From NCBI RefSeq assembly GCF_001570405.1, contig NZ_BBYM01000013.1:62001-126000 (forward strand): DNA of 64,000 nt, written 5' to 3'. This stretch comes from Microtetraspora niveoalba. Lineage in GTDB: Bacteria > Actinomycetota > Actinomycetes > Streptosporangiales > Streptosporangiaceae. The notes under the pieces are model-generated. The model was given only the letters and a program-made list of their open reading frames with translations, was not told where the DNA came from and searched no databases. Below are positions 7,997 to 46,504 of this stretch, in pieces. The position numbers and the translations under genes are program-made. Each line of letters begins with the position of its first letter. Position 1 is the first letter of the stretch.

Positions 7997-8938
7997 TCAG
8001 GCCTGCACGATCCCGATGCAGATCAACGGCGCGATCAGTACGGCGAGCGGTCCGCTGAGCAGGAGGCTCACGGCGCTGTAAACAGCCGTCGGCACCCATG
8101 TCGATCGCGGCCTCTCACCGCGCAGAAGCCGTTCCACGCGGTGCACGACCGCCGTTTCGGCCAAAGCGGGGGTTCCCGCTGTCGTGGCGGCGGGAGAGGC
8201 CATCTGCACCAGGGCACGGGCCAACGGCAGTCCGCCATGGGCCCGCGACGCACGATCGTCGGCCATCATCTCCAGAAGCACGGGCACGACCTCGCGGGCG
8301 GTTCGTACCGCGGGGATCCAGGGGAACGCCTGATGCAGTGCTATGAACGGGAGCAGGACGAGGTCATGACGACCTCCCGCGTGAGCGCGCTCATGTTCGA
8401 TGACGGCACGGAGCTCCTGGGGGCCGAGCCGCTCCAACGTTCCGCGGCTGAGCACGATCCGACTGCGCCACCCCGGAACACAGTAGGCGGCCAGCCCCTC
8501 GTCGGGCAGAACGTAGGCATCGTGGGAGGGGCAGCGGTCGGCGACGAGGTCCACCAGAAGACGCTGCCGTCGTTGCGTGGCAGCCGTTCTCACAGCCGTC
8601 CTGATCGTGTGGGTGAGCAGCCACACCGCCAGTCCCAGCGACCAGGCCAGCGCGGAAATCTGCGTCCAGTCGAGCCCGCCCAGCCCGCGATCGTCCATGA
8701 TCTGGCCGATCAGGGTGTGGGCTCCGTGCGGGAACACCGCGGCCAGCGGAATCACCGCTGCCACCAAACCGATACCGATCGCGCCCAACCCTCCCGCCAG
8801 GCCGATCGCCTGCCACAGCGCGAGCGCCGCCCGGGGGCTCTGGTGGGTCCACGGCGCAGTGGCCAGCCGTGCGGCCAGGCGGCCGCCAAGCATGATCGGA
8901 GCCAATGAGATGCCGGCGGCGACCAGCCAGAAGTTCAC
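7997..8938 (-). CDS. M56-family (BlaR1-like) membrane metallopeptidase
   Basis: This 313-residue protein has hydrophobic helices at the N-terminus, in the middle and at the C-terminus. Its gluzincin zinc site is HERAH in RAVIEHERAHAGGRHD. M56 proteins sense cell-wall or other stress and cleave BlaI/MecI-type repressors. There is no penicillin-binding sensor domain at the end, as is usual for the actinobacterial short form. Its start overlaps the stop of the BlaI gene by four bases (ATGA), so sensor protease and repressor form one operon. Confidence 0.88.
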   Translation of the reverse strand: MNFWLVAAGISLAPIMLGGRLAARLATAPWTHQSPRAALALWQAIGLAGGLGAIGIGLVAAVIPLAAVFPHGAHTLIGQIMDDRGLGGLDWTQISALAWSLGLAVWLLTHTIRTAVRTAATQRRQRLLVDLVADRCPSHDAYVLPDEGLAAYCVPGWRSRIVLSRGTLERLGPQELRAVIEHERAHAGGRHDLVLLPFIALHQAFPWIPAVRTAREVVPVLLEMMADDRASRAHGGLPLARALVQMASPAATTAGTPALAETAVVHRVERLLRGERPRSTWVPTAVYSAVSLLLSGPLAVLIAPLICIGIVQA

Positions 8939-9291
8939 GGATCGGTTCCGTCCCGTCCGTTGAGCGCGTCTCTGAGCACCTCGGCGACCTCGGGCGAGAC
9001 GACGCCGACGAAGCGGTTCACCGCGGCCGCGAGGTCGGTGGCCTCATCGAGTGCGGCGCGCATGGTTTCGGCGACGAAGGCGTCCTTCGTGGCCGTGGCC
9101 TGGTAAAGGTGCGCTCTCCCCCGCCGTTGCCTGGACACCATGCCCTTCCGGGAGAGCCGGACCAGCACGGTGAGAACGGTCGTGACGGCAGGGGACGACG
9201 GGAGTGCCTGGGCGACGTCCTGGGCGAACATGCCCTCAGGATGGTTCCACAGAAGTTCCATTATCGAACGTTCCAGATTGCCGAGCCGCAC
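8935..9291 (-). CDS. BlaI/MecI/CopY-family repressor
   Basis: This 118-residue winged-helix protein has the family N-terminus (RLGNLERSIMELLW) and the wing region SRKGMVSRQRRGRAHLYQA. The C-terminal helices (about 75-115) serve dimerisation and hold the usual protease-sensitive segment. It would repress its own operon until cut by the M56 protein encoded downstream. In actinomycetes such pairs respond to beta-lactams, copper or respiratory stress; the ligand is not visible here. Confidence 0.9.
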   Translation of the reverse strand: MRLGNLERSIMELLWNHPEGMFAQDVAQALPSSPAVTTVLTVLVRLSRKGMVSRQRRGRAHLYQATATKDAFVAETMRAALDEATDLAAAVNRFVGVVSPEVAEVLRDALNGRDGTDP

Positions 9292-9324
9292 TCATCAGCC
9301 CCCTTGCACACATCTACAGGAAGG

Positions 9325-9346
9325 AGAAGATTACCGGCCGTCTTCT
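9325..9346. promoter_or_regulatory. inverted repeat upstream of blaI-like gene
   Basis: AGAAGA-N10-TCTTCT lies 34 bases upstream of the BlaI start. It shares its arms with the palindrome in front of the DsbA-VKOR operon, though the spacer is longer. It could be an operator shared by the two units. Confidence 0.35.
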
Positions 9347-9440
9347 GGCGGGCGCCTCCGGCGCGGGTACGTCGACCCGCATGTCAGCCCCGCCGTCAGG
9401 GCTCGGCCGGACGTCGCGTGACACGACGCATCCGGCGACC

Positions 9441-9467
9441 GGCCCCTGCCGCCCATCAGCAGGGGCC
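9441..9467 (-). terminator. hairpin after the ZIP gene
   Basis: GGCCCCTGC and GCAGGGGCC form a perfect 9-base stem with a 9-base loop, 28 bases past the stop of the ZIP-fusion gene. No T tract is present, as is common for such hairpins in high-GC genomes. Confidence 0.55.
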
Positions 9468-9494
9468 CGTAAGGCGGGGACATGCCGGATCACG

Positions 9495-10685
9495 CTACCG
9501 GCCGAACACCTTCAGCAGTTTCCGGCGCTGCTGCTCCGTCAGGTCTGCCACCTGCCGCTCCTCGTCGACCCCGCCGGCCGCGATGAGAGCTGTGACTTTG
9601 TCCTTGCTGTGTCCGGGTAGGGCACGCAGGATCCGCCCGATCGGCGTGCGCTTGATGAGATCGTCGTCGCGCTGGAACACCTCGGCCAGGGTGAGCCGTC
9701 CCGAAGCGATCGCCGCCTGCAACTCCGCCTGGCCGTACGCGCCGGAGAACGGCCCGGCAGGGGCCGGCGATGTGCCGGAACCGGGCCGTGAGGGAATCGG
9801 TCGCGCGTAGTCCTTCATGGCGAGGCCCGTGGAAGGTGAGGGCGGAAGGGCTCCGTCCTCGGCATGCAGGATGTTCGCGGTGGCCAGCAGCGTGCCGGCG
9901 ATGCCCGCGGCGGCCGCGGCCACGGCGACCTGGCGCCTGGAGAGCCGCCCGTTTCGCTGCCTGCTCGCGGCGAGTTTCATGCCGACGACGGCGGTCCGCA
10001 GCAGCACGCCCATCACCATGCTGAGCAGGATCGGCACCAGCGGAGCCGGAAGCGGGCTCAGCGTGGCGAGCAGCACTCCGACGGCCGGGCTGACACAGGA
10101 CACGACGAGCCAGGGCGCCAGGCGCTGCCTGGCCATGTCGAGCAGCGCGGCGAGAGCCAGCCCTTCACTGGCGGAGTGGATGGTGAGGGCGATCACCACC
10201 ACGACCGAGGCGGTCAGGGCGAGAGTCGCGCCCTCGATCGCGCGGTGCAGCGTGAGTGCGGCAGCGGTCCCCATGCCTCCGAACAGGGCCGCGTTGATGG
10301 CTTCCTTGACGCGGCGATGCCGACCTGGCGCATGGGCTCCGCCTTCCCTCTCGGAGTGGTCGTGTGCGTGCCCGCACCCTTTGCGGGTGAAGTAGGTGAT
10401 GACGAGGAATCCGAACGTGGCGGCGAGCGCCGGCGCCCAGAGCGGCACGCCGGCCTGCATCGACTCCGACCACGCGTCGGGAAGCAGGTCGACGAGAGCG
10501 GTGACCAGCATCATGGCGGAGGCCACTGCCAGCCACAACGTCATCCGCTGGGAGTTACGGCGGGCCAGCCAGGCCCCTGTGAGAGTGGAGGCACAGACCA
10601 GCAGTACTGCGACCCATGTCTCCCGGTTGGCGGGTTGTCCTTCAAGTGCCGGGCCTACGGCCCGCGCCCAGTCCGATGAGGGCAT
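9495..10685 (-). CDS. ZIP-family metal permease fused to an mIHF-like domain
   Basis: The first about 270 residues form a ZIP transporter with eight likely helices. The paired metal motifs HRAIEGATLAL and HSASEGLALAAL are in helices 4 and 5, and a His-rich loop (GHAHDHS, then more His) lies between helices 3 and 4. After a Pro-rich linker (about 275-310) comes an 80-residue C-terminal domain. Its pattern, LTLAEVFQR, then RTPIGRILRALPG, KDKVTALI, and QRRKLLKVFG, follows the actinobacterial integration host factor (mIHF) helix-hairpin-helix fold. The hairpin itself is altered (PGHSKDK instead of PGVGKVK). Eight helices with positive loops inside would place this tail outside the cell, so DNA binding is doubtful. 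Likely zinc or related metal uptake. Confidence 0.82.
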   Translation of the reverse strand: MPSSDWARAVGPALEGQPANRETWVAVLLVCASTLTGAWLARRNSQRMTLWLAVASAMMLVTALVDLLPDAWSESMQAGVPLWAPALAATFGFLVITYFTRKGCGHAHDHSEREGGAHAPGRHRRVKEAINAALFGGMGTAAALTLHRAIEGATLALTASVVVVIALTIHSASEGLALAALLDMARQRLAPWLVVSCVSPAVGVLLATLSPLPAPLVPILLSMVMGVLLRTAVVGMKLAASRQRNGRLSRRQVAVAAAAAGIAGTLLATANILHAEDGALPPSPSTGLAMKDYARPIPSRPGSGTSPAPAGPFSGAYGQAELQAAIASGRLTLAEVFQRDDDLIKRTPIGRILRALPGHSKDKVTALIAAGGVDEERQVADLTEQQRRKLLKVFGR

Positions 10686-10812
10686 CGATGAACACCTCTG
10701 GTCGATTTGTGGGGGGAAGGACCGGGAGGGGTGGAGGGGATGACCGTCACCGTCGGTTCCGCCATCGGGCCGCAGGCGACCTCGCGCCCGCGGCGGCCGG
10801 GCGGCGTGAAGG

Positions 10813-11592
10813 TCAGGCGTGCGAGCGCCGGCCCGTCGGGGGTGTCACCGTGCCTGGCGCATGGGCGCCGAGCACGCGCTCACCGTCCCGGGCCGTGTGC
10901 TCCGCTTTGAGGTGCTGCACGCTCGGGAGCGACGCCGCGATGTCGTCAGGATCGTGAAGCTGTGTGATCAGGCGGTGCAGGTGGCCGATCTGGCCTTTCA
11001 AGGTCTCCTGCATCTGGCTGTCGAAGTCGGTCACGAAGGTGCTCAGGGTCCTGATCCGCTGATCCAGCGCCTCACGCCGCCCCTCCTGGATCTCCCGTTG
11101 CAGTGCGGTGGCTCTTTCGAGCGCATCCGCGACCGTTTCCTCCGCCTCTTCCCGGGCTCGCGTGAGGATCGTCTGGGCCTCCTGGCGCGCCGAGGAGACG
11201 GTCCAGTCGGCGGTTTCCTGCGCGATCTCCACGATGCGTGCGGCTCTTTCCCCAGGGGAGAGTCGCATGTGCTGCGCCCTCTCGTCGGCCTGGGCGTGCA
11301 GAGTTCGGAGTTCCTCGTTCTCCCTCAGGAGTCTCGTCAGGGTGGCCTCGACCCGGCTGAGGAAAGCGTCGACCTCGGCCAAGGCGTAGCCCTCGCGCAG
11401 GCGGACCACGGTGAACACCTGATTGCGGACGCCGGCCGGAGTCAGCAGTCCCGTGCTCTCATGTGGATGGTTTCGCGGGAGTGACGCGACCTCCGCCGCG
11501 CTGACCACGTGACCGTGCCCATGTCGTTCGCCCGATCGGGCGACCCGCTCACCATGTTCGTGTTCGTGTTCGTGTTCGTGTCTGTTGGGCAT
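10813..11592 (-). CDS. DivIVA-domain coiled-coil protein with His/Glu-rich N-terminus
   Basis: This 259-residue protein begins with alternating His and Glu (MPNRHEHEHEHEHGE) and a further GHGH cluster. It then has a DivIVA-type domain at about residues 50-95 (TPAGVRNQVFTVVRLREGYA, DVDAFL-like AEVDAFLSRVE). From about 80 to 215 it is a continuous coiled coil rich in Glu, Arg and Ala. DivIVA/Wag31 proteins bind curved membrane at poles and septa and recruit partners. The His tail suggests metal binding, which fits the ZIP gene downstream and the His-rich gene upstream. It is not the main polar-growth DivIVA, which sits elsewhere near cell-wall genes in actinomycetes. Confidence 0.8.
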   Translation of the reverse strand: MPNRHEHEHEHEHGERVARSGERHGHGHVVSAAEVASLPRNHPHESTGLLTPAGVRNQVFTVVRLREGYALAEVDAFLSRVEATLTRLLRENEELRTLHAQADERAQHMRLSPGERAARIVEIAQETADWTVSSARQEAQTILTRAREEAEETVADALERATALQREIQEGRREALDQRIRTLSTFVTDFDSQMQETLKGQIGHLHRLITQLHDPDDIAASLPSVQHLKAEHTARDGERVLGAHAPGTVTPPTGRRSHA

Positions 11593-11772
11593 TCCGTCCC
11601 ACCAACCCTTCGACGTTTCGGCGGATGAGCGTCCGGCTGATGCGGTGCCGAAATGGCACGGATACCGGATTCCAGGACCGTGTAGTTCTTGCGGGCTCGG
11701 GCGGTCGCCGTGCTCTCAGAACATTGGCGCGTTTCCGGTCCAGCGGCATGCGCCGCCATAGGTGGGCGGCGG

Positions 11773-12099
11773 CTATTCGCCGTCGACACGAAGGTGGCAT
11801 GCGTCCTCGTGGGTGCCGTGCTCATGCCCGTGCTCATGCCCGTGCTCGTGGCCGTGCTCCCCGTGCTCGTGGCCGTGCCCGTGCTCATGCCCGTGCTCGT
11901 GCCCGTGTGCGCCGCCGTCGTCCCGTTCCGGCTCGTCGACGCCGATCGCGTCGTGACAGGACGACTGAGCGTGCTCGTGTGCGTGCTGCGTCACAGGAAC
12001 TCCGATCTCCTGATTGATTTCTGTTGTTTCCTGCCTGATTTCCGTCTCTCCCGGCGGTGAGCTCATGGACGAGATGAAGCGTTGACGGCATCGCTTCAC
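11773..12099 (-). CDS. small His-rich metal-binding protein
   Basis: This protein of up to 108 residues has a C-terminal half that is almost only HEHG repeats (about residues 62-95), then HEDACHLRV. One Cys-His pair (SSCHDA) precedes it. Such tails bind several zinc, nickel or cobalt ions and serve storage or delivery. No fold can be assigned. The GTG at 12099 has AAGGGG a few bases upstream; an ATG at 12066 is the alternative. If the ATG is used, the inverted repeat 12075-12098 lies in the leader as an operator would. The codon run is close to a simple repeat, so length may vary between strains. Confidence 0.65.
   Translation of the reverse strand: MKRCRQRFISSMSSPPGETEIRQETTEINQEIGVPVTQHAHEHAQSSCHDAIGVDEPERDDGGAHGHEHGHEHGHGHEHGEHGHEHGHEHGHEHGTHEDACHLRVDGE
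12075..12098. promoter_or_regulatory. inverted repeat at the start of the His-rich gene
   Basis: TGAAGCG-N10-CGCTTCA has perfect 7-base arms. The TGA-A and TTCA ends resemble the half-sites in front of the ArsR gene at 13180, so it may respond to the same or a related metal sensor. Confidence 0.35.
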
Positions 12100-12279
12100 C
12101 GGCCCCTTCGGCAGGATTCGCGCCTGCCGCCAATGCCTTTACAGATCGCGGGAGTCATTCGATGGGCAGGCTCCGAGACGACGGCCGTCACGACCATCGG
12201 CCGGTACGGATATGCCGGATCGGCGCTGACCATGAATGTGAGGTGCCGGGCGCGTCAGCTCCGGTGCCGGCCGCGGGGT

Positions 12280-12317
12280 CCCCGCCCCCGACGCACGGGG
12301 GATGGTCGGGGGCGGGG
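12280..12317 (-). terminator. strong GC hairpin after the SH3 gene
   Basis: CCCCGCCCCCGAC and GTCGGGGGCGGGG form a perfect 13-base stem with a 12-base loop, 37 bases past the stop of the SH3 gene. The rest of the stretch 12100-12353 shows no gene. Confidence 0.7.
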
Positions 12318-12353
12318 TGTCGGCATGCGCCGGCGGCGTACTCGCCGGAACGG

Positions 12354-12947
12354 CTACCTGCCGGTGATCTTCCGGAGCTTCTGGGCGGGAGTCCAGCCGA
12401 CCTTGCCGGTGGAGGTCTTCACCGCGACCCAGCCGTCGGCGGTGGAGCAGGACCCGGCGAATCGCCCGCCCGCGTTCAGCGTGCCGATCGGCTGGAAGCC
12501 GGAACCAGGACCGTTGTAGACGGTGAGGGAGCCGGTCGAGCCCTGATGGAGGAGCTGGTAGGTACAGCTCAGGGAAGGAACCGCGGCCGGAGCGGCCGGC
12601 TGGGACTTGGCGACCTTACGCAGGTAGTGGGCCCAGGCCCACCCCGATCGCCCGGTGGAGGTCTGCACCGCGACCCAGCCTTTCGTGGTGGTGCACGACC
12701 CGGCGACCCGGCCACCGGCCGTCGTGAGCCGGCCGATCGGCCGGAAACGCAGACCCGGCCCCCTCCTGACACGGAGGTAGCTGGTCGACCGGACGTGGGC
12801 CAGCCGGTAGGTGCAGGCACGGACGGGGTGGGCGGCGGCCGTGCCGGCGGGGGCGGCCGCGGCCTGCGCCGGCGCGACGCCGACGGCCAGCCAGCCCGCG
12901 GCGGCGCAGACGGCCAGGGCGGGGGTGATCTGCTTGGAGATGGACAC
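12354..12947 (-). CDS. secreted protein with two bacterial SH3 domains
   Basis: This 197-residue protein has a Sec signal peptide with cleavage near residue 30 (APAQAAAA). Two SH3b repeats follow at about 42-112 and 125-195. Each has the pattern CTYxL, S-x-LxVxxGPGxxFxPIG, CxTxxGWVAVxTSTGxxGW, with two conserved Cys that may pair. Such modules bind peptidoglycan or small ligands outside the cell. No catalytic domain is present. It is transcribed away from the ArsR-CDF operon, and the shared 230-base promoter region holds one sensor half-site pair. Confidence 0.82.
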   Translation of the reverse strand: MSISKQITPALAVCAAAGWLAVGVAPAQAAAAPAGTAAAHPVRACTYRLAHVRSTSYLRVRRGPGLRFRPIGRLTTAGGRVAGSCTTTKGWVAVQTSTGRSGWAWAHYLRKVAKSQPAAPAAVPSLSCTYQLLHQGSTGSLTVYNGPGSGFQPIGTLNAGGRFAGSCSTADGWVAVKTSTGKVGWTPAQKLRKITGR

Positions 12948-13060
12948 GAGGTCTCCCTTCCGGATGCATCGCGTTTCACCTGACCTGGGCCGGGGAGTCG
13001 GGGGTCTCCGTGGCGATGCTCACGAAGGGTGGTGCTCTGATTACTCTTCGTTTAAACATG

Positions 13061-13074
13061 TGAACAGTCACTCA
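13061..13074. promoter_or_regulatory. putative ArsR/SmtB operator, upstream copy
   Basis: TGAA-CAGTCA-CTCA differs by one base from the TGAA-N6-TTCA half-site pair of SmtB-type repressors. It lies in an AT-rich stretch between the SH3 and ArsR genes and could control both directions. Confidence 0.4.
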
Positions 13075-13178
13075 ACTATTTCTTTACCTTGCATCGGTAT
13101 TCGCATGGCGACGCTTCGTGACGGGTATGCCGCCGACCGTCTTGACAGCGGGACTTCCGTCGGCTCACACTCTCACGT

Positions 13179-13583
13179 GTGAATAATCGTTCAAACATCG
13201 TCTCGTTGTCCGCCGACGCCTGCTCCTCTCCCGTCGTCGACGCGCACCGGGTCGCCGACGTCCGGCAGGCACTGCCCAGCGAGCAGATGATCCAGGATCT
13301 CGCCCAGATCTTCGGCCTTCTCTCCGATCCCGGACGCCTCCGGCTGATATCCGCCCTGCTGGAGGGCGGGGAGATGTGCGTGTGCGACCTCGCGGCGGCG
13401 ACCGGGCAGAGCATGTCCGCCGCCTCGCACGCGTTGCGGCTGCTGCGGGCCAACCGCGTAGTGAAGGTGCGCAGAACAGGAAGGATGGCCTACTACCGGC
13501 TCGCGGACTCCCACGTGCGGATGCTGATCGACCTCACCATCGCCCACCTCGGCCACGACGAAGGGGATCCCCATGACGACTGA
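13179..13583 (+). CDS. ArsR/SmtB-family sensor with both Cys and His metal sites
   Basis: This 134-residue winged-helix repressor keeps two metal sites known from the family. The alpha-3 site is CVC (C67, C69 in EMCVCDLAA), as in CadC and ArsR, with C15 as a possible N-terminal partner. The alpha-5 site is D110-x-H112-x10-H123-x2-H126, the zinc, cobalt or nickel site of CzrA and NmtR. It overlaps the CDF exporter gene and therefore controls metal export. The GTG start has no ribosome binding site and lies next to an operator, so a leaderless message is likely. Zinc, cobalt and cadmium are the candidate inducers. Confidence 0.88.
   Translation: MNNRSNIVSLSADACSSPVVDAHRVADVRQALPSEQMIQDLAQIFGLLSDPGRLRLISALLEGGEMCVCDLAAATGQSMSAASHALRLLRANRVVKVRRTGRMAYYRLADSHVRMLIDLTIAHLGHDEGDPHDD
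13180..13193. promoter_or_regulatory. putative ArsR/SmtB operator over the start codon
   Basis: TGAA-TAATCG-TTCA is an exact match to the SmtB-type TGAA-N6-TTCA core. It begins one base after the G of the GTG start, which supports transcription starting at or near the codon and tight autoregulation. Confidence 0.55.
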
Positions 13584-14616
13584 TCAGCGCGACGCCGCGG
13601 GCCTCGACCACGGGCATCAGCACGAAAGCGGGCACAGACACGGGCCCGGTCACGGGCATGGGCACGGGCACGGGCACGCCGTGAGCGCTCAGGCGGACCG
13701 CCGCTACCTCACCGGCGCTCTGCTGCTGATCGTCGGCTTCATGATGGTCGAGGTGGTGATCGGCTTCATCGCCCGGTCTCTCGCGCTCATCTCCGACGCG
13801 GGCCACATGCTCACCGACGCCATCGCCATCGTCTTCGCCATGGTCGCCATGCGGATCGCCGCCCGGCCGCCCCAGGGCGGTTTCACCTACGGCCTCAAGC
13901 GCGCGGAGATCATCTCCGCGCAGATCAACGGCATCACCCTGCTGCTGCTCAGCGTGTACTTCGTCTACGAGGGCGTCCAGCGGCTGATCACGCCACCGGA
14001 AGTCGCGGGCGTCTACATGGTGGCCACCGGGCTGGCCGGCATCGTCGTCAACCTCGCCGCCACCTGGCTCCTCAGCAAGGCCAACCGGTCGAGCCTCAAC
14101 GTCGAGGGTGCCTTCCAGCACATCCTCAACGACCTGTTCGCCTTCATCGCCACCACCGTCGCCGGCGCCGTCGTGTGGCTCACCGGGTGGGGACGCGCGG
14201 ACGCCGTCGCCGCGCTGGTCGTCGCCGCGCTGATGCTCAAGGCGGGCTGGGGACTGGTCCGCGACGCGGGCCGCGTGTTCATGGAGGCCGCGCCCGCCAA
14301 CATGAACCCCGCCGAGATCGGGCAGAAGGCCGCCGCCCTGGAGCACGTGACAGAGGTCCACGACCTGCACGTGTGGGAGGTCACCTCCGGCTACGCCTCC
14401 CTGTCGGCGCACATCCTGGTGCGGCCGGGCGCCGACTGCCATGCCGTACGCCAGGCCGCCGAGCGTCTGATGCGCGAGGAATACGGCATCGAGCACACGA
14501 CCCTGCAGGTCGACCACGCGCCCAAGGACCTCCTCCCCGCTACGGACGCCCAGCGCCACTGCGCCGACCCGCACGGCCCCGTCCACCGAGCCGAGATCTC
14601 TTCCGTGCGCCGGTAG
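13573..14616 (+). CDS. CDF-family zinc/cobalt exporter (CzcD-like)
   Basis: This 347-residue cation diffusion facilitator begins with a His-rich tail (about residues 8-35, many GHGH steps). It has six membrane helices; the zinc-site residues are in helix 2 (DAGHMLTDA) and helix 5 (FQHILNDLFAF). The cytoplasmic C-terminal domain holds EVHDLHVWEV, typical of the family. Such proteins export zinc, cobalt or iron in exchange for protons. The ATG overlaps the 3' end of the ArsR gene by 11 bases, so sensor and exporter are co-translated. Confidence 0.92.
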   Translation: MTTDQRDAAGLDHGHQHESGHRHGPGHGHGHGHGHAVSAQADRRYLTGALLLIVGFMMVEVVIGFIARSLALISDAGHMLTDAIAIVFAMVAMRIAARPPQGGFTYGLKRAEIISAQINGITLLLLSVYFVYEGVQRLITPPEVAGVYMVATGLAGIVVNLAATWLLSKANRSSLNVEGAFQHILNDLFAFIATTVAGAVVWLTGWGRADAVAALVVAALMLKAGWGLVRDAGRVFMEAAPANMNPAEIGQKAAALEHVTEVHDLHVWEVTSGYASLSAHILVRPGADCHAVRQAAERLMREEYGIEHTTLQVDHAPKDLLPATDAQRHCADPHGPVHRAEISSVRR

Positions 14617-45331: not shown

Positions 45332-46504
45332 TTGCTCAAGTCCAGCAAGCTGGCCGGGGTGCTCATGATCAGCACTGTGGTGGCGGGAGGCGCCGTGGCT
45401 GCGAGCGGGGTCGTCACCCCCGCCTTCGCGGACGGCATCCCCGTACCGGTGGTCACCGGCCACCATGGTGGCTTCACCGGCCCTCCGGGCAACAGGAACA
45501 GGAACCACAACAGGAACCGGAACCGGAACCACAACCGGAACCACGAGCACCAGCGAGAGCGTCAGCACGAGCGCCAGAAGCAGGACCAGAAGGTGCGGAA
45601 CATCATCGTGACGCCGCACAGGCCGCGCGTCCGGATCGAGCCGACCCGGCCGACAACCCGGCCGCTACCGCCGCCGCCCGCCGTGCCGCCCGCGCCGCCG
45701 ACGACAACGACAACGACAACGCCGCCCGCACCGCCCACAAGGCCCACACGGCCCACGCCACCCACGCTGCCGCCGCCGGCCACGCCCCCGGCGACAACGA
45801 CACCGCCGGCCACGGTCACCACCCATCCCACCCCCACTCCCACGCCGACACCCACGCCGACACCCACGCCGACGCCCACGCCCACGGCCACGGCCGTGGT
45901 CACCACCGACACCGTCACCACGGACACCGTCACCACGGACACCGTCACCACGGACACGGTCACCACGGATGCCGTCACCACGGTCGTCGGGGCGGCCACC
46001 GCGACATGCGCTTCCGGGCTCGGCCTCGCGGGGCTCTCCATCGGGGCGAACACGGGGCTCTCCGCCGGCGCCTCCCTCGATGCGAACGCGACCGCCGCCT
46101 GGGTGCCCGTGTTTCTCGTCGACGCGAGCCCCGCGACCGTCGCCGCCGCGGCAGGCGTCAACGCGGACCTCGGGACACTTGTCACGGCAGACGTCGGCGC
46201 CGGTCTCGGACTGGGTGTCGGGGTGCTTGCCACGGCGGATGCCGGTGCCGGTCTCGGGACGGCTGTCACGGCGGATGCCGGCGCCGGTCTCGGACTGGGT
46301 CTCGGAACGGCTGTCACGGCGGACGCCGGCGCCGGTCTCGGGACGGCTGTCACGGCGGACGCCGGCGCCGGTCTCGGACTGGGTCTCGGAACGGCTGTCA
46401 CGGCGGACGCCGGCGCCGGTCTCGGCACGCTTGCCACGGCGGACGTCGACGCCGGTCTCGGACTGGGTGCCGGGACGAACGCCTGCGTCGTCCCCTCCTT
46501 CTGA
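45332..46504 (+). CDS. secreted low-complexity repeat protein
   Basis: This 390-residue protein begins at a TTG with AAGGAG 8 bases upstream. A Sec signal ends near TPAFADG. It then has an Asn/Arg/His tract (about 50-85), a Pro/Thr region with PT dipeptides (about 105-190), five TTDTV-like units (about 190-218), and a C-terminal array of TADAGAGLG-type units (about 285-380). Only three Cys occur. It looks like a wall-associated or matrix-forming fibre; no enzyme domain is visible. The repeats are mirrored in the DNA, so the length probably varies. Confidence 0.7.
   Translation: MLKSSKLAGVLMISTVVAGGAVAASGVVTPAFADGIPVPVVTGHHGGFTGPPGNRNRNHNRNRNRNHNRNHEHQRERQHERQKQDQKVRNIIVTPHRPRVRIEPTRPTTRPLPPPPAVPPAPPTTTTTTTPPAPPTRPTRPTPPTLPPPATPPATTTPPATVTTHPTPTPTPTPTPTPTPTPTPTATAVVTTDTVTTDTVTTDTVTTDTVTTDAVTTVVGAATATCASGLGLAGLSIGANTGLSAGASLDANATAAWVPVFLVDASPATVAAAAGVNADLGTLVTADVGAGLGLGVGVLATADAGAGLGTAVTADAGAGLGLGLGTAVTADAGAGLGTAVTADAGAGLGLGLGTAVTADAGAGLGTLATADVDAGLGLGAGTNACVVPSF
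45899..45983 (+). repeat. 15-base tandem repeat array (TTDTV units)
   Basis: The unit GTCACCACGGACACC recurs about five times with few changes, ending in GTCACCACGGATGCC and GTCACCACGGTC. It lies in frame within the repeat protein. Confidence 0.8.
46185..46475 (+). repeat. GC-rich tandem repeats coding TADAGAGLG units
   Basis: Blocks built from GCTGTCACGGCGGACGCCGG and GCCGGTCTCGGACTGGGTCT alternate in short and long forms, with about seven TAD(A/V) starts. Nearly identical copies suggest recent expansion. Confidence 0.75.

Follow-up and report, generated by a model that had tools for sequence, protein, structure and literature searches.

A ZIP-family permease carrying a C-terminal mIHF homologue in Microtetraspora niveoalba and related actinobacteria

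We describe a 396-residue protein of Microtetraspora niveoalba in which a ZIP-family permease is joined, through a flexible linker, to a homologue of the actinobacterial nucleoid protein mIHF. The ZIP–mIHF fusion is real and confirmed, with match quality far beyond chance, and the tail is an mIHF homologue with a homologous H2TH core. The gene lies in a 64,000-nucleotide stretch of DNA that was analysed as a whole and is referred to here as the window; its parts and neighbours are listed in Table 1. The explanation we favour, held with moderate confidence as a whole, is that a ZIP-family importer gained an mIHF-type H2TH core behind its last transmembrane (TM) helix, most simply through a single ancient fusion event within this family of actinobacteria. 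The fold of a nucleoid protein that otherwise works in the cytoplasm would thereby have come to lie outside it, tethered by a flexible Pro-rich linker, and the domain may now serve as an extracytoplasmic accessory through whose surface the importer makes contacts, either to dimerise or to engage a partner in the envelope. The adjoining DivIVA-domain protein probably organises or localises the importer from the cytoplasmic side. In the titles and abstract openings of the literature searched, which covered few subscription papers, no account of a ZIP–mIHF fusion or of a ZIP–DivIVA pair was found.

Table 1. Features of the fusion gene and its neighbours (positions in the window)
Feature	Position	Strand	Basis or remark
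ZIP–mIHF fusion gene, 396 aa	9495..10685	(-)	ORF with ATG; Pfam, NCBIfam, structure model
ZIP permease part, residues 1–277	9855..10685	(-)	eight TM helices in model
TM3–TM4 loop, predicted cytoplasmic, His-containing, residues 100–130	10296..10388	(-)	net positive in 95% of 63 relatives
TM4 motif HRAIEG, residues 147–152	10230..10247	(-)	candidate metal ligands H147, E151
TM5 motif HSASEG, residues 170–175	10161..10178	(-)	candidate metal ligands H170, E174
Pro/Ala/Ser/Thr/Gly-rich linker, residues 278–317	9735..9854	(-)	low pLDDT, dN/dS
mIHF-like S13-type H2TH domain, residues 318–396	9498..9734	(-)	sequence, profile, fold
Altered hairpin LPGHSKDK, residues 356–363	9597..9620	(-)	replaces LPGxGxxK
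Altered second turn RQVADLT, residues 377–383	9537..9557	(-)	replaces RRVGGLG
DivIVA-domain protein, His-rich N-terminus, directly upstream	10813..11592	(-)	Pfam DivIVA 2.9e-18
Small His-rich ORF, upstream of DivIVA gene	11773..12099	(-)	relative in L010, L039, both M. fusca-like
BlaI-type repressor, downstream	8935..9291	(-)	
M48/M56-type peptidase, downstream	7997..8938	(-)	Pfam M48 above cut-off, M56 below
ArsR-family regulator, divergent	13179..13583	(+)	
CDF metal exporter, His-rich N-terminus, divergent	13573..14616	(+)	

The fusion gene and the mIHF homology of its tail

An AGAGG stretch, noted by eye, lies directly upstream of the start codon. The closest named relative, judged by the fusion protein, is Microtetraspora fusca (Streptosporangiaceae), whose version shares 94% identity across the full 396 residues. 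The initial annotation, made from the sequence without searches, had proposed the fusion of a nucleoid-protein fold to a metal importer; it is seen in frame in 49 distinct sequences. These 49 in-frame fusions, together with the full-length M. fusca relative, rule out a frameshift or assembly artefact, the former of which that annotation had kept in view. In the structure model, pLDDT falls below 50 at residues 282–299 and 301–306 of the linker, 19% of which is proline.

Homology of the tail to mIHF was evident at several levels. NCBIfam actino_IHF matched residues 320–394 (E 2.1e-11, 44.2 bits for the whole protein) and the tail alone scored 48.3 bits, both below the cut-off of 60, and Pfam H2TH_5 matched the C-terminal part weakly, below its own cut-off. 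A PDB search with the tail returned, at E < 0.1, only sIHF (4itq, E 0.007) and mIHF (6tob, E 0.013); a profile of the 49 tails retrieved 6tob (3e-11), 4itq (1.3e-7) and then ribosomal protein S13. Profile–profile comparison of the tails with 12 stand-alone relatives scored 99.7% (E 3e-26, 77 columns, 48% identity), and 43 of the 49 tails individually match actino_IHF at E ≤ 0.001. The window tail shares 39–48% identity with 11 stand-alone paralogues and 33% with the genome's own sIHF; the window genome (G000) also encodes an ordinary stand-alone mIHF/sIHF, at C15. Chance resemblance to mIHF is ruled out by the actino_IHF, PDB and profile matches.

The structure models agree with this assignment. 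The H2TH core of the tail matches the fold of sIHF/mIHF at 1.3–2.3 Å over 79–80 residues; the tail-only model was computed from a 53-row alignment that included 12 stand-alone relatives, which may bias that model towards mIHF. The full-length model was built from alignment A1, which contains no stand-alone mIHF row. A Foldseek search with this full-length model listed no match at E ≤ 0.001, a point against the favoured reading. The mIHF likeness claimed at the outset is supported by sequence, profile and model, and the predicted tail does resemble mIHF in structure. Both the H2TH core fold and clear sequence homology are held in common with sIHF SCO1480 (PDB 4itq/6bek) and mIHF (PDB 6tob), whereas ribosomal protein S13 and the TopoVI-B H2TH domain are more distant from the tail by fold score, S13 also in sequence.

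The tail is not filed as mIHF because it scores below the actino_IHF cut-off, lacks the N-terminal segment and has two changed turns. The stand-alone sIHF/mIHF type is distinguished by a MALPxLTPEQR segment, a GxG hairpin and a RRVGGLG turn, all three of which are missing from the window tail; a segment of the first kind is present in 12/12 aligned stand-alone relatives. Among ten mIHF matches picked by hand from the matches listed, mostly for long frames or unusual scores, none was fused to another protein: all are stand-alone and start MALP or MAVP, the open frame just extending upstream.

Changed positions, distribution and constraint

The DNA-binding hairpin, already described as altered in the initial annotation, reads GHS within LPGHSKDK where 12/12 stand-alone relatives have GxG, and the RR-GLG turn is absent, with RQVADLT in its place. 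These changes are shared by most of the family, as judged against a small stand-alone set (12 proteins here and 19 in the domain tree, one of those of sIHF type). Position 360, the second hairpin glycine, is G in 8/49 tails versus 12/12 stand-alone proteins; K or R occupies position 363 in 15/49 versus 12/12; R occurs at position 377 in 21/49 and at position 378 in 12/49, each versus 12/12; and position 381 is D or E in 44/49 tails versus G in 12/12. The hairpin region is partly deleted in L086, L087 and L089. A further position, W351, is tail-specific (28/49 tails versus 0/12), the window protein having R351. We take the two turns of mIHF, the GxG hairpin and RR-GLG, to form its DNA grip; on that assumption, and given that neither varies among the 12 stand-alone relatives, the lost positions would be those that grip DNA.

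Net charge averages +3.2 in the tails versus +5.75 in the stand-alone proteins; it is positive in 40/49 tails (+3 in the window tail), zero in four and negative in five. The tails of L091–L093 are strongly basic (+10 to +15) and all three keep a KRRVG motif of the mIHF kind. This mostly basic character, on a fold that is a nucleic-acid-binding one, speaks for a tail that has kept the ability to bind nucleic acid, or some other polyanion, outside (extracellular DNA, teichoic acid, polyphosphate) and so holds divalent metals near the importer mouth. Such retention is nevertheless unlikely in our judgement, given that G360, K/R363 and R377–R378 are mostly lost, that position 381 is acidic in nearly all tails, that nine tails are neutral or negative, and that three hairpins are partly deleted. 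A bolder extension, which we consider distinctly unlikely, is that the exported nucleoid protein kept its charge in order to hold extracellular DNA or polyanion, that the cell harvests metal from envelope-bound polyanions, and that L091–L093 are closest to the ancestral DNA-gripping state. Re-use of the fold for partner contact fits better than metal-dependent DNA contact, both of which had been entertained at the outset. Cysteine occurs in the linker or tail of only 4/49 sequences, and a metal-binding role for the tail gets no support.

In a tree of the domain (78 columns), a single branch separates the 49 tails from the 19 stand-alone proteins (support 96/83). With L091–L093 near the stand-alone side, basic and carrying KRRVG, the tree suggests a series from a DNA-gripping ancestor to the changed domain. 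The same three loci have two cysteines each in the linker–tail part, and their tails are among those closest to the stand-alone proteins.

In all, 66 distinct ZIP-like frames were collected, 49 tailed and 17 tail-less; for the relatives, a script took the nearest ATG, GTG or TTG as the start codon. Alignment A1 comprises 63 of these relatives (49 tailed, 14 tail-less), three tail-less frames (two from L067, one from L090) being excluded. A hand count places the fusion in at least 33 of the family's 297 genomes, with up to three per genome among the matches listed, and 53 of 345 genomes of the order have a relative, tailed or tail-less, at E ≤ 1e-40. In a sample of the class (394 genomes), five genomes had matches at E ≤ 1e-15, all of them in the window's own family and the window genome among them; rare cases escape this sample, since a contig scan turned up two tail-less relatives in Streptomycetaceae (Streptomyces sp. 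CG 926, Actinacidiphila soli). One fusion, L052 (Actinoallomurus), belongs to Thermomonosporaceae by its NCBI name.

Mapping the tail onto the ZIP tree takes nine changes, a number that a single gain with several later losses would fit but that does not prove such a history. Because the tail is absent from 14/63 relatives and changes this often on the tree, it appears dispensable in places. Tail remnants were sought by tblastn with 17 of the 49 tails, and none was found at E ≤ 0.01 at the 14 tail-less A1 loci, some of which had flanks of just 0.8–1.5 kb. The matches obtained were at L094/L109 and L096, loci added for their known tail or mIHF; L067, L090 and L110, also added, gave none. Several irregular loci were seen along the way. 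At G061:C36 (L149) the remnant match spans only residues 236–394, and at G005:C16 (L094, L141) the remnant consists of linker and tail only (274–395), with no ZIP within the stretch examined. A degenerate-looking ZIP relative with a TGA inside the match lies in the same genome as the window, at G000:C2:96773-97585 (L090, L137).

Selection was gauged by dN/dS in 13 hand-chosen close pairs, the tail being computable in 12 (L078–L079 has dS = 0). Values ranged from 0.10 to 0.46 in the ZIP part, 0.24 to 1.68 in the linker and 0.05 to 0.61 in the tail, which stayed within 0.05–0.39 in 11/12 pairs. In most pairs the tail is constrained about as tightly as the permease, with L044–L019 as the exception (0.61 versus 0.21). 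The tail value lies below that of the linker in 9/12 pairs, the others being L072–L073, L085–L088 and L044–L019. Core residues are kept nearly throughout (L382 and L390 in 49/49 tails, R387 in 48/49). Those three pairs, and the existence of tail-less close kin (L048, L049, L025), would suit a non-functional passenger persisting by chance; set against the constraint in 11/12 pairs, the conserved core and the presence of the tail in 49 distinct sequences, we find this very unlikely.

The permease, its topology and its neighbourhood

Pfam Zip matches the N-terminal part above its cut-off (37.2 versus 35.1 bits), and 60 of the 63 family members match at E ≤ 0.01. Residues ~9–271 of the model match BbZIP (Bordetella bronchiseptica ZIP; PDB 5tsa, 6pgi, 8ght), with eight TM helices in the BbZIP arrangement. 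BbZIP chains align only as far as residue 271–274 of the window protein, the C-terminal H2TH domain being extra here. By motif spacing rather than residue-level superposition, H147, E151, H170, E174, R148 and S171 correspond to BbZIP H177, E181, Q207, E211, N178 and D208, which PMC9873690 gives as residues of the binuclear centre.

The candidate metal ligands H147 and E151 are present in 49/49 tailed rows (in tail-less rows, H 13/14 and E 14/14), and the TM5 motif with H170 and E174 is kept in 63/63; the main metal site looks intact. R148 and S171, present in 63/63 rows, occupy the places of BbZIP N178 and D208, so the second metal site looks lost and the protein probably has one metal site. 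Many ZIPs lack the second metal site, which is not taken here as a defining feature of the family. The protein is a ZIP in fold and motifs, and would be expected to transport metal.

R148 in all 63 relatives at the N178 position, and the occurrence of paralogues, could also be accommodated by a sensor (transceptor) rather than a transporter, in which the ZIP body reads metal and the tail signals to a partner in the envelope or spore. Retention of all four ligands in the 49 tailed rows argues for ordinary transport, and no partner is known; we rate a sensing role as hardly probable.

Loop charges were counted across the 63 relatives with hand-set TM boundaries. Loops 1–2 and 7–8 are net positive in all 63 and loop 3–4 in 95%, versus 3% for the N-terminus and 2% for loop 2–3. 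The short loop 5–6 should face the cytoplasm, yet just 8% of the relatives have it net positive, and it thus gives no support to the topology. The eight helices and the loop charges together point to an N-out/C-out arrangement. PMC9873690 describes cytoplasmic extensions of BbZIP α3 and α4, from which we would expect the chain after α8 to be outside. By fold, helix count and most loop charges, the tail is therefore predicted to lie outside the cytoplasm, in agreement with the helix counting of the initial annotation.

In 37/49 loci with the tail and 13/14 without it, the ZIP gene has a DivIVA-domain gene as a same-strand neighbour, upstream or downstream, no more than 1.5 kb away. A CDF gene occurs within 4.5 kb in 27/49 tailed and 11/14 tail-less loci, and an ArsR gene near the ZIP gene in 20/49 and 6/14, respectively; flanks were unequal in these counts, and with a flank of 1.5 kb the window's own CDF and ArsR genes went uncounted. 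Since the DivIVA gene adjoins as frequently where the tail is absent, the DivIVA–ZIP link is independent of the tail, which looks like an addition to a pre-existing metal module.

His-rich tracts occur in three of the neighbours, namely the N-termini of the DivIVA protein and the CDF exporter and the small ORF. The small His-rich ORF contains a 12-base repeat array (11816–11907), and another repeat (13629–13678) lies in the CDF N-terminus. A scan for sigma-70-type promoters and terminators over 9290–13600 found none, and Rfam gave no match at gathering scores in the whole window. Farther away, 46169–46468 holds a long tandem array with an 84-base unit (3.6 copies, 89% matches).

The tail could instead be cytoplasmic through a different topology, touching the nucleoid or the DivIVA-domain protein as a membrane-tethered nucleoid protein, for which the DivIVA adjacency, the normally cytoplasmic location of mIHF and the lack of the expected positive charge on loop 5–6 might be cited. 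A distant parallel would be Rv3852, a nucleoid protein anchored in the membrane that binds the DivIVA homologue Wag31 (PMC8233713). A cytoplasmic tail is nevertheless highly improbable: the eight helices, the BbZIP fold and the other loop charges fit N-out/C-out in nearly all 63 relatives, the adjacency holds equally without the tail, and the presumed DNA-contact positions are mostly lost.

Known systems and implications

Unlike actinobacterial IHF, the window tail is attached to a membrane protein, and its predicted place is outside. ComEA-type DNA receptors, as generally described, also expose an HhH-type domain outside the membrane; they have a single TM helix and an intact HhH and serve DNA uptake, whereas the hairpin of the window protein is changed. 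In human ZIP4, too, the outer face of the transporter carries an accessory domain; this extracellular domain is N-terminal and is not known to be related in sequence to the window tail. According to PMC9873690, the ZIP4 extracellular domain is possibly key for dimerisation.

Within one family, the fusions can be arranged as a series: a protein that packs DNA appears to have crossed the membrane by fusion, lost its DNA grip and persisted in an importer. This makes testable how a nucleic-acid-binding fold turns into an extracellular accessory domain. As a bacterial ZIP with a predicted extracytoplasmic domain, the fusion may offer a compact system in which to study the kind of extracellular domain that human ZIPs carry. 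The loci also show that a DivIVA-domain protein and a metal importer are repeatedly encoded side by side.
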